A stretch of 38,241 bases of DNA, taken from NCBI RefSeq assembly GCF_900142465.1, contig NZ_FRAX01000026.1, positions 1 through 38,241 of the forward strand, in the 5' to 3' direction. Source of the stretch: Fibrobacter sp. UWH6 (GTDB lineage: Bacteria; Fibrobacterota; Fibrobacteria; Fibrobacterales; Fibrobacteraceae). The notes beneath the pieces are model-generated. The model was not told the origin of the DNA. It worked only from the letters and a program-made list of their open reading frames with translations, and did no database searches. Numbering within the stretch: position 1 is the stretch's first letter; each line of letters begins with the position of its first letter. The position numbers and the translations under genes were made by a program. Below, piece by piece: positions 3,048 through 38,114 of this stretch.

Positions 3048-3240
3048 GGATTTAATCCAATGCACTATCCCGCGCAAGGGATACCCCTTGGGATGCAATC
3101 CTACGCACCATCCCGTGCGATGAATTCGCCTTCGGATTCAATCCCACGCACTATCCCGTGCAATGAATTTGCCTTGGGACGCAATCCTACGCACTTTCCG
3201 CTTTTGGGGATACCCCTTCGGATGCAATCCGGTGCCCTTC
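3048..3240. repeat. Array of 43-bp repeats with phased GGAT-NNN-ATCC sites
   Basis: About 4.3 degenerate copies of a 43-bp unit in a stretch with no gene. Each boundary carries an 11-bp inverted repeat GGAT-NNN-ATCC at 3048, 3091, 3134, 3177 (GGAC arm) and 3220, spaced exactly 43 bp. Inside the units lies GCAC-N6-GTGC (clear in units 2 and 3, decayed elsewhere). Units 1 and 4 share a GGGATACCCC block, while units 2 and 3 share TGAATT. 43 is not a multiple of 3, so the 83-codon open frame across it is unlikely to be a gene. No unique spacers are present, so this is not CRISPR. The rest of 2971-3388 shows nothing else recognisable. Confidence 0.75.
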
Positions 3241-9628: not shown

Positions 9629-11430
9629 GGAGCCTCCTTGTCCGAGGGTTCAACGGCGGCCTTTTGTTCCGCGGATTTTTGTTCCGCGGATTTTTGCTCT
9701 GCGGATTTTTGTTCCGCCAGCTGTTTCATGTAGGCGGCCAGGGCGTGGGCGTCAGCCTGGGTCATACGATTTCCAAAGGCGTTCATGTTGTTGCGCCCGT
9801 TCATGATAACCGCGGTCAGGGAATCCAGGCCCAGGGAATCGATGCGGGCCAGGTCCAGCTTTTGAGGCACGGGGTAATATTCACGAACAAACTTCTGGTT
9901 GAAATTTCCATCGGCGCCGTGGCATGTGGCGCAGCGGGAATTCCACAGCAGCACAGGGTTGTGGCTGTCGGCAGAAACGCTTAAGGGTTTGTCGGCAGAA
10001 ACGCTTGCCGCCGTAGAGGAGCCGCCTCCATAAAGCATTCCCCCTAGGAGCGCCACAATCATGATCATCAAGGTTAGCAGTACCTTCCCGCGAACCCCAA
10101 AATTCGGGAAAACCCGGTTTTCACGTACAAACTTAAGGCAGAGCAAAAAGGTGGTCACCAGGGCCACGATGGGGTACAGCACAGGGATCACGTTTACAAA
10201 GCCTGCCCCGGCGCTTACGAAGACTTCCTGGTCAAAGCTCCAGACGCAGAACAGGACCGCCGACAGGATGCCCACCAGCAGCGGCATCCGGAGCATCTTG
10301 AATTCCACGGTTGTCCAGGGGACTTTGTAGCTGTTGTCTTCTTCGATTTCGGGCGTTTCGTTCTGGGCCAGCTCGCTGCCGTCCACTTCGCCAAAGTAGG
10401 CGCTGTCTACAGCAATGTAGGAGTCCAGCTTTTTACGCAGGCGGAAGAACATCAAGATGAACAGCCCCACAGAGAACGACATGAGGCCGTAATCGGCCCA
10501 GTGCAGAATTCCATCCCGGGTGTTCATGGAGGGGATCACCAGGTAGAGGCGTTCCGCAAACAGTCCAAAGAGAATGCAGAAGTTCACCAGGGCTCGCAAG
10601 GTCCTGTTATCGCGAATGGCTTCCACCCAAAGCAGCTGGGGAATCACGCCGGCAAGGATTACAGCGGGCAGGCAGATTTCACCCTTCTGCAAGAAATCCC
10701 AGAACCAGATGACGATCAAGGTCCAGGAACAGCAGAGCATCAGGCGTTCCAGCAGACGCACGCGATAGCCTTCGGCCCAGAGCAGCGCATTCACAAGAGC
10801 CAGCCCCGAGTAGATGGCCCCCGCAATAAAGTACATGGGGAAGAACGCCCCCTGCCACTGGGGAACGAAGGTGGTGGCAAAGTCTAGGCTTACGATGGTA
10901 TGCACCCACAGCACCAGGGGGAACAGCAGCCAGGCCAGAGGGCGGCGGAGTTTCGCCAGGGCGGGAACCACGTTGCTTTTTAAATGGGTAAAGAAGAAGA
11001 CCAGCGACAGGGTGCCGTAAACGGCGATGCAGCAGAAATCCCAGACCAGGGGCGAACGCAGGTTGGCAAAGTTTCCGCGGGCATCGGCAAAGGGGGCCAC
11101 CATATAAAAGTTTTCCATAACGCCCAGGTGCATCAGGGGGAACAGCGCCGCAATCACCAGGCTGCAGAGTGTCGAAAGCTCCGCAATCACTGCGGTGCGG
11201 CGGTCCATGCGCACGCCCAGCGCCAAGAAGATGGCAGAGATCAGCGTACCCGCGTGGGCAAGGCCGATCCAGAAAACGAACAACGCGATGGGCGTTCCCC
11301 AGAAGGTGTTGCCATCGGTGGCCCACGCTGCGGGGCCTTCGTAAAGGGTATAGCCCAAGGCGGCAAGCCCAGGCAAGAACAGCACCAGGCCCACGTAGAA
11401 CAAGATTTTCTGGATAGTCCAACCCTGCAC
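9625..11430 (-). CDS. NrfD/PsrC-like quinol-binding membrane subunit fused to a c-type cytochrome domain
   Basis: 601 residues. The first ~340 form a multi-span NrfD/PsrC-type membrane domain, the module that exchanges electrons with menaquinol in Nrf, Qrc and alternative complex III. Further membrane segments follow near residues 385-480. A C-terminal monoheme cytochrome c domain then has C-A-T-C-H at 500-504 and a candidate Met ligand in GRNNMNAFGNRM. The C-terminus has four EQKSA/EQKAA repeats coded by a 15-bp tandem repeat (9662-9718). The start is GTG, overlapping the stop of the Fe-S gene by one base (TAGTG). A fused cytochrome is unusual for NrfD itself; in alternative complex III the equivalent hemes are on separate subunits. 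Confidence 0.82.
   Translation of the reverse strand: MQGWTIQKILFYVGLVLFLPGLAALGYTLYEGPAAWATDGNTFWGTPIALFVFWIGLAHAGTLISAIFLALGVRMDRRTAVIAELSTLCSLVIAALFPLMHLGVMENFYMVAPFADARGNFANLRSPLVWDFCCIAVYGTLSLVFFFTHLKSNVVPALAKLRRPLAWLLFPLVLWVHTIVSLDFATTFVPQWQGAFFPMYFIAGAIYSGLALVNALLWAEGYRVRLLERLMLCCSWTLIVIWFWDFLQKGEICLPAVILAGVIPQLLWVEAIRDNRTLRALVNFCILFGLFAERLYLVIPSMNTRDGILHWADYGLMSFSVGLFILMFFRLRKKLDSYIAVDSAYFGEVDGSELAQNETPEIEEDNSYKVPWTTVEFKMLRMPLLVGILSAVLFCVWSFDQEVFVSAGAGFVNVIPVLYPIVALVTTFLLCLKFVRENRVFPNFGVRGKVLLTLMIMIVALLGGMLYGGGSSTAASVSADKPLSVSADSHNPVLLWNSRCATCHGADGNFNQKFVREYYPVPQKLDLARIDSLGLDSLTAVIMNGRNNMNAFGNRMTQADAHALAAYMKQLAEQKSAEQKSAEQKSAEQKAAVEPSDKEAP
9662..9718 (-). repeat. 15-bp tandem repeat coding EQKSA
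   Basis: Nearly four copies of a 15-bp unit containing TTTGTTCCGCGGA on the plus strand, in frame with the NrfD-cytochrome C-terminus. Being a multiple of three, it can change length without frameshift. Confidence 0.8.
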
Positions 11431-13807: not shown

Positions 13808-16039
<2,232 letters not shown>

Positions 16040-18270: not shown

Positions 18271-20241
18271 CTATTTCTTTATTCCGAAATCGCTGTCGCT
18301 CATGCCATAGAAGCGGATGTCGTCCAGCCAGATTTCCAGGTCTTCGTTAACCACTTCTCCGTAAGAGGAGCCGTTGCTAAACTGAAGGTTGAAAACGTCG
18401 TCGTTGTGGTCCAGCCATTCGGCACCGCTAATCTGCAAGTCAGACCATGCGCTTGCCACCCACTGGTCGAACCAGACCGTATACTGTTTCCATTCATCGG
18501 TCAAGTCGATTTCGGTACCGAAAGCACCCCAGGTATCGGCGCAGCAGGTATCGGCGTAATCGGTCTTCCAGTTGATCTTGAAGGAACCGGTACCCTTTGC
18601 CCAGAAGGTCATTGCCTTCAGATTCTTGAAGTCGAAGCGCTTTTTGTTATCGCTATCGAACTGAGTACCGAAACCAGCCCACGGGTAGGAATCGCCTTCC
18701 AGGTGGATCTTCACATAGAGACCGCGACCATCGTGACCATTCTTCGTGATCATCTGTTCGAAGTTGGTCTTTTCGTAGGAATTGGTGGTATCGGCAACCA
18801 TGATTCCGGTGATAATGGTATCGCCAGATTCAATGGTCATATTGCTGGTGGGAATGCAGTAGGCATACCAGCTGGGGGCATCGGAAAGTTCGTCGCCCTT
18901 GGACTTGGCAACCTTAGCGGCGAGAGCGCTAACATGAATGGAATCGCCATCGAAACCGTCAAAGTCGTCCAGCAGCACATAACCCAGAGTATCCAGATCC
19001 GGATAGACAGCGTCATCGAAAGTCATGGTGGGCTGCAGCAAGGCACGCATCAGGTAACTACGCCATTCGTCCTTGTTTTCGTCATACACGCCGAAGCCCG
19101 AGCTGAATTCCCAGTAGGCAGTTGCGAAGCCAAGGGAGTGAGCCAGGTAGGAGATGTAGGAAGTCCAGGTTTCGCGAGAGACAGAGTCTGCGGCTTCATA
19201 GGCGCCAAATTCACCCAGGTATACAGGAATATCATGCTTGTCAGACCAGTCCTTGATCTTGCTGAAAGCTGTCCTTACAGCTCTCTTCTGACCCGGAGTG
19301 GCACGCCATTCGGTACCCGTTTCGTACTTGGGATCCACAAAGTCTGCCCCCTGGTGAGTGAAGTTAAACGGATCGTAGTAATGGAAGGTCACGATGATAT
19401 TTTCAACGCCGGCAGGCAGAGAAAGAGCGGCTGCGGAGTTGTAGGAATTGTAGTTGTAGGTACCCACCATGATAACTCGGGCAGGATCAGCTTCGCGAAC
19501 CACATTGATAATGGAAGCCACGACACTGTTCCACTTATCGTTGGTCAGCTTGCCGCGAGGTTCGTTCAAGGTTTCCACGACCAGGGAGTCGGGAGAATAC
19601 TTGATCACGTTAGCCATCATCTGCTTGTACACGCTCAAGAGGCAAGGAGTTTCCTCGTCAGGATTCTCGTACATGGCATCCCAATGGTGGGTGTTGATTA
19701 CAGCGATCATACCATTCTTGATCGTATGGTCTACAGCCCAGAAGACCTGCTTCATCCAATCTTCATCTACGACGCATTCTGCGCCTTCGCCAGTCACATG
19801 TTCTTCCCAACTTACAGGAATACGGATGTTCTTGAAACCGGAATCGGCCAAGGCCTTGAAATCCTTGGGCTTGATCGTTTCGCTCCAGTTGCTCTTGAAC
19901 TGGGAATCGTCAAACCCCTTGAAGTTCGTATTGGGAGCTTCGAAAACGTTGCCCAGGTTAATACCTGCGCCCATGTCCTTGACCAGCTGATTTGCGCGGG
20001 CCTTCACTTCGTAAACGATGCTCGAAGAAGAAACTTCCTCATCCGTAGAATCCTTGACGCTAGAAGAAGACTCATCCTTGTCTTCATCCTTGGAATCAGA
20101 AGAAACCACCACATCGTCTTCGGAAGATGCAGAAGAAGAAGAATCGTCAGAGCAAGCGGACAGGCCGAATGCCAGAAGACCTGCAACCATACCGGTCATG
20201 CAAAACTTCATCTTGGATTCGAGATATTTTGAAATGTTCAT
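18271..20241 (-). CDS. GH5 endoglucanase lipoprotein with C-terminal carbohydrate-binding region
   Basis: 656 residues from the ATG at 20241, chosen because GAGG lies upstream and the signal sequence starts there; an upstream in-frame ATG at 20268 is less likely. The signal peptide ends in a lipobox (GLSAC, Cys30), followed by a Ser/Asp-rich linker to about residue 75. The GH5 catalytic domain (about 80-400) shows acid/base E227 in ETLNEPRG and nucleophile E344 in YLGEFGAYE. The C-terminal ~240 residues, starting at LLDDFDGFDGD, resemble CBM11-type beta-sandwich modules. It probably hydrolyses beta-1,4-glucan at the cell surface. Size and plan recall endoglucanase 3 (EG3) of F. succinogenes. 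A possible operator, ATTCC-N5-GGAAT, lies at 20274-20288. Confidence 0.92.
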   Translation of the reverse strand: MNISKYLESKMKFCMTGMVAGLLAFGLSACSDDSSSSASSEDDVVVSSDSKDEDKDESSSSVKDSTDEEVSSSSIVYEVKARANQLVKDMGAGINLGNVFEAPNTNFKGFDDSQFKSNWSETIKPKDFKALADSGFKNIRIPVSWEEHVTGEGAECVVDEDWMKQVFWAVDHTIKNGMIAVINTHHWDAMYENPDEETPCLLSVYKQMMANVIKYSPDSLVVETLNEPRGKLTNDKWNSVVASIINVVREADPARVIMVGTYNYNSYNSAAALSLPAGVENIIVTFHYYDPFNFTHQGADFVDPKYETGTEWRATPGQKRAVRTAFSKIKDWSDKHDIPVYLGEFGAYEAADSVSRETWTSYISYLAHSLGFATAYWEFSSGFGVYDENKDEWRSYLMRALLQPTMTFDDAVYPDLDTLGYVLLDDFDGFDGDSIHVSALAAKVAKSKGDELSDAPSWYAYCIPTSNMTIESGDTIITGIMVADTTNSYEKTNFEQMITKNGHDGRGLYVKIHLEGDSYPWAGFGTQFDSDNKKRFDFKNLKAMTFWAKGTGSFKINWKTDYADTCCADTWGAFGTEIDLTDEWKQYTVWFDQWVASAWSDLQISGAEWLDHNDDVFNLQFSNGSSYGEVVNEDLEIWLDDIRFYGMSDSDFGIKK

Positions 20242-20343
20242 ACCAACCTCTTTCTTATGTACACCCATAATCTATTCCAATTCGGAATACAAGAAATCAA
20301 CTAAGATGAAAAAATTGTTTTCTCTTGTACACACCTCCGAAAT

Positions 20344-20919
20344 GCAAAAAGGACTAGTCTTTTCGACTAGTCCCTTTTGTGAGAGCGAGCGCTTATCAGA
20401 GTATTTCTACCTGATTCTAGCGCGAGCGGTCTTGACGTGAGCAAAAAGGACTAGTCTTTTTCGACTAGTCCCTTTTGTGAGAGCGAGCGCTATCGGAGGT
20501 TCTTTACCTGCGATTTGCGCGAGCGGTCTTGATGAGAGCAAAAAGGACTGGTCTTTTCGACCAGTCCCTTTTGTGAGAGCGAGCGCTATCGGAGGTTCTT
20601 TACCTGCGATTTGCGCGAGCGGTCTTGACGTGAGCAAAAAGGACTAGTCTTTTTCGACCAGTCCTTTTTGTGAGAGCGAGCGCTATCGGAGGTTCTTTAC
20701 CTGCGATTTGCGCGAGCGGTCTTGACGTGAGCAAAAAGGACTAGTCTTTTTCGACTAGTCCCTTTTGTGAGAGCGAGCGCTATCGGAGGTTCTTTACCTG
20801 CGATTTGCGCGAGCGGTCTTGACGTGTGCAAAAAGGACTAGTCTTTTTCGACCAGTCCTTTTTGTGAGAGCGAGCGCTATCGGAGGTTCTTTACCTGCAA
20901 TTTGCGCGAGCGGTCTTGA
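20344..20919 (-). repeat. Six tandem ~97-bp units, each with a structured hairpin and a terminator
   Basis: The motif GAGAGCGAGC recurs at 20381, 20478, 20574, 20672, 20769 and 20866 (spacing 96-98). Read on the minus strand, the array starts at the gdhA stop codon. Each unit has hairpin A, closed by GCGC/GCGC with inner ATCG-AGGT pairing to ACCT-CGAT, then hairpin B, GGACTAGTC pairing to GACTAGTCC around GAAAAA, followed by CTTTTT. Hairpin B has a fully compensated variant in unit 3 (counting from the left) and, in units 4 and 6, changes that keep a G-U pair only on the minus-strand RNA. Unit 6 keeps hairpin A by a minus-strand U-G. Unit 1 is rewritten (ATCAG/CTGAT with a GAAA loop) but still pairs. 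The units therefore appear to act as minus-strand RNA. Spacing is not a multiple of three, so coding is unlikely. Confidence 0.9.
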
Positions 20920-22296
<1,377 letters not shown>

Positions 22297-36872: not shown

Positions 36873-38114
36873 ATGGCAGAGAATCAAGAAAACAAGGGCA
36901 CCGAAAGCAAATCTAGCCGCAAGAAAAGAAACGTTGTCGTACTCGTACTCATGTTCCTTTTGTTGGTCTGCCTTTTTATTGTGCAGTGCCACCTGGACCA
37001 GATGAAGCAGGAAGCCCTGGCCAAGGAACAGGAAACCGCCCTTGAAATGCAGCGTCGCCGCACCCTTGATAGCCTCCGTCAGCTGGAGCAGATGCGCGCA
37101 GACTCCATCCGCAGGGCCGATAGTCTCGCCGCCCTCGTAGTGGATACCGTTCCTGCCGACACTACCCCCGCCGTCGTGGAACCGGTAAAGCCCGCCCTGA
37201 ACCGCGACAGCATCCGCCATGTCCGCGACAGCATCAAGCATGTAAACGACAGCCTGGCCGCCATCGAAAAGGCCCGTCAGGACAGCCTGAAGGCCGTAGC
37301 AGACAGTCTCGCGGCCCTCGAAAAGATCCGCGCCGAAGAAGCCGAAAAGAAGCGTATCGCCGACTCCATCCGCGCCGCCGACCAGGTTCCGCCGGTTGCA
37401 GAAATCGCTCCCCCCGCAGGCCGTTACTACGATCCCATCAAGCTGAAGGTCAAGTGCGACGAAATCAAGTGCAAGACCTACCTCTCTGTTGGCGACACCA
37501 ACAATCCTGTGGAAGCAGGCAAGGCCATCGAATACAACAAGACCGGTTCTGTGTTCTATTACGCCGTAGACTCCGTGGGCAACCGTACCCCCTGGGAAGA
37601 AGCCAAGTATGACATGGCCAGCGACAACGTCTGCGGAAAGAACGCCTACCCCGTTCCTGTTGGCGGTAAGCAGGTCTGCGTAGACGCCTACGAATATCCC
37701 AACTCCCCCGACGAACTTCCCAAGGACATGGTCTCCCAGGAAGAAGCCGTGGCCCTCTGCGCCAAGGAAGGTAAGCACCTCTGCTCTATCGATGAATGGC
37801 AGGCCGCCTGCCGTGGCAAGGACAACACCAAGTATTCCTATGGTGACACCTACAAGCAGAACAAGTGCAACACCAACACCAAGGCTGCCAAGCGCGTAGG
37901 CCGCAAGGAACAGTGCCGTAGCTGGTGGGGCATGTACGACATGAACGGAAACCTCTGGGAATGGACTTCTACCACAAGCAAGGATCACCCCAATATGTAT
38001 CTGGTGGCCGGTGGTGCATGGAACACCAACAATGGAAGCAAGTGTACCGAAAGCAAGTTCAGCTTCTACCCCCAGAATCAGTACCCCTCCGTAGGCTTCC
38101 GCTGCTGCAAGTGA
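36873..38114 (+). CDS. Membrane-anchored protein with Asp-Ser coiled coil and FGE/SUMF1-like domain
   Basis: 413 residues. A short basic cytoplasmic tail is followed by one membrane segment (25-42), then about 130 residues of heptad-like helix rich in D-S pairs (DSIRHVRDSIKHVNDSLAAIEK). A small beta domain (PPAGRYYDPIKLKVKC...GSVFYYAVDSVGN) is like chitobiase C-terminal/YD-type modules. The C-terminal FGE/SUMF1-like domain is VCVDAYEYPNSP, GKHLCSIDEWQAACRG, WGMYDMNGNLWEWT, VAGGAWNT and GFRCCK. Active FGE needs two oxidase cysteines; whether they are present cannot be told by eye. AAGGAATT precedes the ATG 19 bases after cdaA, so it is likely cotranscribed with folP-cdaA. Confidence 0.8.
   Translation: MAENQENKGTESKSSRKKRNVVVLVLMFLLLVCLFIVQCHLDQMKQEALAKEQETALEMQRRRTLDSLRQLEQMRADSIRRADSLAALVVDTVPADTTPAVVEPVKPALNRDSIRHVRDSIKHVNDSLAAIEKARQDSLKAVADSLAALEKIRAEEAEKKRIADSIRAADQVPPVAEIAPPAGRYYDPIKLKVKCDEIKCKTYLSVGDTNNPVEAGKAIEYNKTGSVFYYAVDSVGNRTPWEEAKYDMASDNVCGKNAYPVPVGGKQVCVDAYEYPNSPDELPKDMVSQEEAVALCAKEGKHLCSIDEWQAACRGKDNTKYSYGDTYKQNKCNTNTKAAKRVGRKEQCRSWWGMYDMNGNLWEWTSTTSKDHPNMYLVAGGAWNTNNGSKCTESKFSFYPQNQYPSVGFRCCK

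Follow-up and report, generated by a model that had tools for sequence, protein, structure and literature searches.

What are the six tandem hairpin units behind the glutamate dehydrogenase gene gdhA of a Fibrobacter genome, and why do they begin exactly where the reading frame ends? The locus lies on contig C26 of genome G000; this contig, in its full length of 38,241 nucleotides, is called here the window. The units, each of 92-97 bp, occupy positions 20344-20919 of the minus strand, directly 3' of gdhA (20920..22269, minus strand; 449 aa ORF). The 5'-most unit begins at 20919 and adjoins the stop codon at 20920-20922. TRF reports 20344-20919 with period 97, 5.9 copies and 94% matches, and the array copies are spaced by 97, 97, 96, 97 and 97 nucleotides. 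These results and the ORF positions agree with the first-pass annotation, which had placed the array on the minus strand and fused it to the gdhA stop codon. A GH5-like gene, named from sequence alone, follows the array on the minus strand (18271..20268; 665 aa ORF). Other tandem repeats are present in the window at 3048-3230 (periods 43 and 86), 9662-9717 (period 15), 14220-14263 (period 21) and 37202-37253 (period 21).

All units are read from the minus strand. Unit 6 (20823..20919), the first in the order of transcription, consists of a TCAA spacer, hairpin A (GACCG...CTCTC; model match 20862-20917), hairpin B (approximately 20829-20864) and a GCACACG tail. It is followed by unit 5 (20726..20822; hairpin A match 20765-20820), unit 4 (20629..20725; 20668-20723), the 96-nt unit 3 (20533..20628; 20571-20626), unit 2 (20436..20532; 20475-20530) and, as the last, unit 1 (20344..20435; 20377-20433), which has only about 92 nt because the 3' TCACG spacer is missing. 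The base changes named earlier do exist: GGACTGGTC/GACCAGTCC in unit 3, whose hairpin B carries a compensatory A-T to G-C change, and minus-strand G-U pairs in units 4 and 6, that of unit 4 in hairpin B. Units 2-6 are near-identical to one another. Unit 1 had been taken for a rewritten unit 2. However, its hairpin A (AGAATCAGGTAGAAATACTCTGATA) belongs to a different subfamily, and the same sequence is found at the same place behind gdhA in genomes G032 and G030.

Orthologues of gdhA were found in 73 of 80 Fibrobacter genomes. The sister genomes G032 and G030 have one and two units behind the gene, respectively, and the close relatives G035 and G011 have no unit and only a plain terminator. Relatives that lack hairpin A and have just one ordinary terminator had been named beforehand as evidence against a conserved structure. 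Such relatives thus exist, but they indicate insertion and not a lack of structure.

Units of the family were collected with regular expressions and with a model derived from nine sequences, and the anatomy was derived from 128 units, picked by their conserved flanks only, with shuffle controls. The consensus is RACC - hairpin A - CTCTC - hairpin B - YTCACRG, about 95 bp in total. The outer stem of hairpin A comprises eight positions; 3 and 4 are usually unpaired (TC/TC), but in a minority of units all eight pair (GACCGAATCCGC...GCGGATTCTCTC). Position 2 of this stem is a Watson-Crick pair in 122 of the 128 units (CG 74, TA 37, AT 8, GC 3), the shuffle mean being 58 and the maximum 74, and position 6 in 116 (CG 67, GC 30, TA 17, AT 2; shuffle mean 50). 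Hairpin B has a core of 8-9 pairs, a loop that is often TNAN, for instance TAAT, and a covarying clamp GCNA/TNGC with variants GCAA/TTGC, GCGA/TCGC, GCCA/TGGC and AC../..GT; clamp position 3 is paired in 110/128 units (shuffle mean 55). The folding energy of unit 6 is -38.7 kcal/mol (z -6.65), 0 of 200 dinucleotide shuffles being as good, and every unit of the array folds far better than shuffles. The claim that pairing is kept by compensatory change, made from the window, holds in both hairpins across the family.

Some units contain further modules. A second, palindromic module of about 80 nt (AAGCGTGCAAAACGAGTGTCGC...ATGACCGAGTGAAGCCGCGGACGCC...GGCGTCAA) sits between CTCTCGCAA and hairpin B, with an identical insertion point in nine loci (L062, L070, L071, L072, L105, L114, L137, L175, L179) that differ in hairpins A and B. 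Its relatives also stand alone as dispersed intergenic repeats of Fibrobacter, as seen downstream of gdhA (L008, L010, L012, L033). In L081, L138, L158 and L179, a third module (ATAAACCTAAGCCGAGTACAGCAGAAACAAG...GTTTATGCGAT..ATCGCAA) interrupts the TTAA loop of hairpin B, each time at an identical position.

With a covariance model (R1) that covers only hairpin A, the element is found in 76 of 80 Fibrobacter species, with 0 to 42 copies per genome. Within the phylum, it is present in 2 of 41 genera, Fibrobacter and one sister genus, and in none of the others. In a pattern scan of 84,980 species, 79 of the 80 loci among the matches listed are from Fibrobacterales. The remaining one, from Brevibacillus, was taken as a chance match, since it lacks hairpin B and its reverse strand resembles a cobalamin riboswitch. 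There were no matches in 2.9 million viral contigs. Genome G000 itself contains two units behind smc, one behind fba and weaker copies, including two units behind fusA on contig C1; copies behind other genes throughout the genus rule out an RNA element specific to gdhA. An apparent cassette-like cluster on contig 4 of G043 turned out, over the 32 kb read, to be a run of ordinary genes, where the context of some copies is unclear. In the eight genomes searched for arrays, 2-6 units at 93-99 bp spacing were found at 18 loci, and the array of the window is the longest; most genomes are drafts or MAGs, where tandem arrays may collapse. Rfam gave no family match for the element at the gathering threshold and, at a permissive one, just two weak matches on the other strand, both at the level of chance, and no Fibrobacter repeat of this kind is described in the papers searched. 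This agrees with the earlier remark that no such element has been described; the repeat is probably novel, although the partial library of papers does not prove it.

Most copies are placed at stop codons and others directly after the T-tracts of terminators, in the sense of the upstream gene. With genes called by simple ORF rules, 77 first copies have an upstream ORF. In 56 of them its stop codon ends at -3..+2 relative to RACC (approximately three of these 56 stop-adjacent ORFs are probably miscalled antisense ORFs), and in none does it end at -62..-11. An independent sample gave 28/43 at -4..+3; among its exceptions, several are evident errors of gene calling, with the arrangement unchanged. 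For ordinary terminators, used as a control, the stop codon ends at -3..+2 in 2 of 131 cases. The fusion seen at gdhA is therefore a general feature of the family. The host stop codon may be TAA, TAG or TGA; its distance from the element varies little, though several phases occur. In some copies the element contributes a part of the stop codon (ATT TAG ACC, TTC TGA CCG, CGA TAA CCG). At stop-codon sites the orientation is always the sense of the host gene; a second class of copies begins directly at the end of the T-tract of an ordinary terminator. The host genes, identified by eye, include gdhA, fba, smc, fusA, pflB, pta, glyA, serA, purC, ilvH and argJ and the genes for transketolase, RNase PH, alanine racemase and an ABC-F ATPase. 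Unlike the stop-codon class, two copies in L166 (1472 and 1770) adjoin the reverse complement of an apparent tRNA T-arm. At smc, the C-terminal 39 residues of the protein are identical in nearly all Fibrobacter species (L244-L273), although neither the stop codon nor the downstream gene is constant.

Three pairs of orthologous sites, one empty and one filled, show clean insertion; since they compare different species, the empty sites might formally also have arisen by deletion. At gdhA, the empty site has TAAT directly followed by GCAATGCC (L021, L020; genomes G045, G054: TAATGCAATGCC), and the filled counterpart (L019; G005) has the element (AAGACC...CACGGAT) between TAAT and GCAATGCC. In the second gdhA pair, the empty site with TAA followed by TTCTTAAAAAG (L024; G074) corresponds to the filled L027 (G041). 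The third pair is at fba, empty in L233 (G076) and filled in L243 (G004). The downstream sequence is unmoved, including, where readable, the native terminator. Target duplications, of 0-2 nt, are short and differ between pairs; those of 2 nt (AT, TA) were seen in some pairs only.

At one and the same stop codon, the subfamily and the junction differ from species to species. There are at least five types of junction at gdhA (TAATACGACC, TAATATGACC, TAATAAGACC, TAATGACC, TAACAGACC; the window has TAATCAAGACC) and at least four at fba. Comparing elements behind one gene across genomes gives a similarity of 0.44, no greater than the 0.43 of random pairs, whereas elements within one genome give 0.49. 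Together with the clean insertion, this is best read as the behaviour of a dispersed element similar to REPs or MITEs.

The conserved pairing need not reflect selection on RNA. The base changes in the array had been presented as direct evidence for selection on the minus-strand RNA. However, on the sense strand of the family G-U pairs (23) do not exceed A-C pairs (21), both being rare (9:6 in hairpin A and 14:15 in hairpin B), whereas the ratio in ordinary terminators of the same loci and genomes is 78:30 (Fisher p 0.023). Thus the structure is conserved, yet not as expected were the sense RNA alone important. A constraint on single-stranded DNA or a cruciform, or palindrome repair, fits these data at least equally well, which is a moderate argument and not a decisive one.

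Each unit had also been described as a hairpin with an intrinsic terminator on the minus strand. The units of the window agree with this, as hairpin B has an uninterrupted A-tract/U-tract stem of the canonical terminator form. In the family as a whole, at least five of the 8 nt preceding the clamp are T in only 59 of 116 units, and thus termination is unlikely to be their general function elsewhere. A terminator pattern scan listed sites on the plus strand alone for the array. As the A/U tract is uninterrupted and no native terminator follows the array in G000, a terminator-like boundary function is likely at this gdhA, and the array now probably serves as a redundant 3' boundary of gdhA upstream of the GH5-like gene. 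It is not a terminator specific to gdhA: the element is dispersed and inserts upstream of a native terminator that relatives retain.

Tandem terminators are known in other bacteria, and a purely local origin, in which an ordinary gdhA terminator slipped into six copies without wider meaning, would agree with the near-identity of units 2-6. It is refuted by the family behind many genes of the genus, by hairpin A and the signatures RACC, CTCTC and TCAC, which are foreign to terminators, and by the recurrence of arrays, and is extremely improbable. Compared with intrinsic (Rho-independent) terminators generally, hairpin B of the window would terminate transcription in the same way, but hairpin A, the conserved clamp, copying from gene to gene and the T-tract in only about half of the units set the element apart. 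Another parallel is with the REP and BIME sequences of E. coli and Pseudomonas, which are likewise short, palindromic, intergenic, mostly 3' of genes and clustered or in tandem, keep their stems by complementary change and vary in copy number between species. REPs are found mainly downstream of coding regions and bear GTAG or CGTC tags, the GTAG REPs being tied to RAYTs (PMC3733652, PMC2817692). Mobilisation by a RAYT (Y1) transposase, or derivation as a miniature element from IS200/IS605, would also suit the missing strand preference, as expected of hairpins in single-stranded DNA. However, the Y1 transposase domain (PF01797) occurs in just 27 of the 80 genomes and is missing from G037 and G043, complete genomes that carry 31-33 copies, and none of 20 Y1 loci has the element. 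Moreover, in place of a single palindrome with a GTAG or CGTC tag, the element has two unlike hairpins, whose order and orientation are fixed, within about 95 bp; its ends are RACC and YTCACRG, and it is anchored precisely at stop codons. We rejected such an origin as very improbable. Integron attC sites and group II intron targets also lie after stop codons or terminators, and folded sites adjoining stops, with nested insertions at fixed positions, resemble them. Still, an integron integrase above the TIGR02249 cut-off was found in 0/80 genomes, no group II intron reverse transcriptase exceeded the cut-off in the 80 Fibrobacter genomes, and the hosts are core genes rather than cassettes; we give this origin practically no credence.

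A different reading is that the element is a cis-acting RNA of the 3' UTR, with hairpins A and B selected at the stop codon for mRNA 3'-end stability, termination or ribosome release. Copies would then spread by gene conversion and rare duplication, and their position would be set by function and not by an insertion enzyme. The invariable sense orientation at stop-codon sites, the strong covariation and the core metabolic and translation genes among the hosts speak in its favour, and the tight placement in several phases could equally result from selection for an RNA function at the stop. Against it stand the absence of an excess of G-U over A-C pairs, the empty sites with intact native terminators at the same genes of close relatives, the copies behind terminators or in unclear contexts, and the variation from 0 to 42 copies among species. 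On balance, we consider it unlikely.

Two further groups of mobile sequences share features with the element. The loci of mycobacterial interspersed repetitive units (MIRUs) carry tandem units. MIRUs are reported to use start codons as insertion sites and to contain a small coupled ORF (PMC12548453). Like them, the Fibrobacter element is intergenic and appears to move into sites set by translation signals, but it lies 3' of stop codons and is built on hairpins. MITEs such as Correia and ERIC are, like it, non-autonomous, dispersed and hairpin-forming, and insert cleanly, as the three empty and filled pairs do; it differs from them in its stop-codon anchoring, and neither terminal inverted repeats nor a parent element were found.

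The array thus probably results from the tandem multiplication of a dispersed, non-autonomous repeat that measures about 95 bp, resembles REPs and MITEs and is specific to Fibrobacter and one sister genus. Such a repeat would spread by copying or insertion through some enzyme, probably acting on folded single-stranded DNA; none of those sought in the 80 Fibrobacter genomes (Y1 transposase, integron integrase, group II intron reverse transcriptase) fits. Insertion may be targeted to stop codons and terminator ends, or may be least harmful there, and the tandem units could have arisen later by unequal recombination or slippage. At gdhA of this lineage, the native terminator would have been lost and hairpin B turned into a canonical A-tract/U-tract terminator. 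One may go further and tentatively suppose, although this is rather doubtful, a new type of mobile element whose machinery recognises gene 3' boundaries (the stop region or the terminator end) and so seeds safe sites, with tandem copies recruited as transcription boundaries of highly expressed genes.

Small dispersed repeats are common, yet the sources searched contain none that sits within about three nucleotides of the stop codon at dozens of core genes unrelated to each other, in a single orientation and with the same genes reached repeatedly and independently. This raises the question of how a DNA element finds the exact end of a reading frame, or why it is kept there. For Fibrobacter, the family provides a multilocus tandem repeat suited to strain typing, and the loci with one to six terminator-like units form a natural series for testing transcription boundaries.
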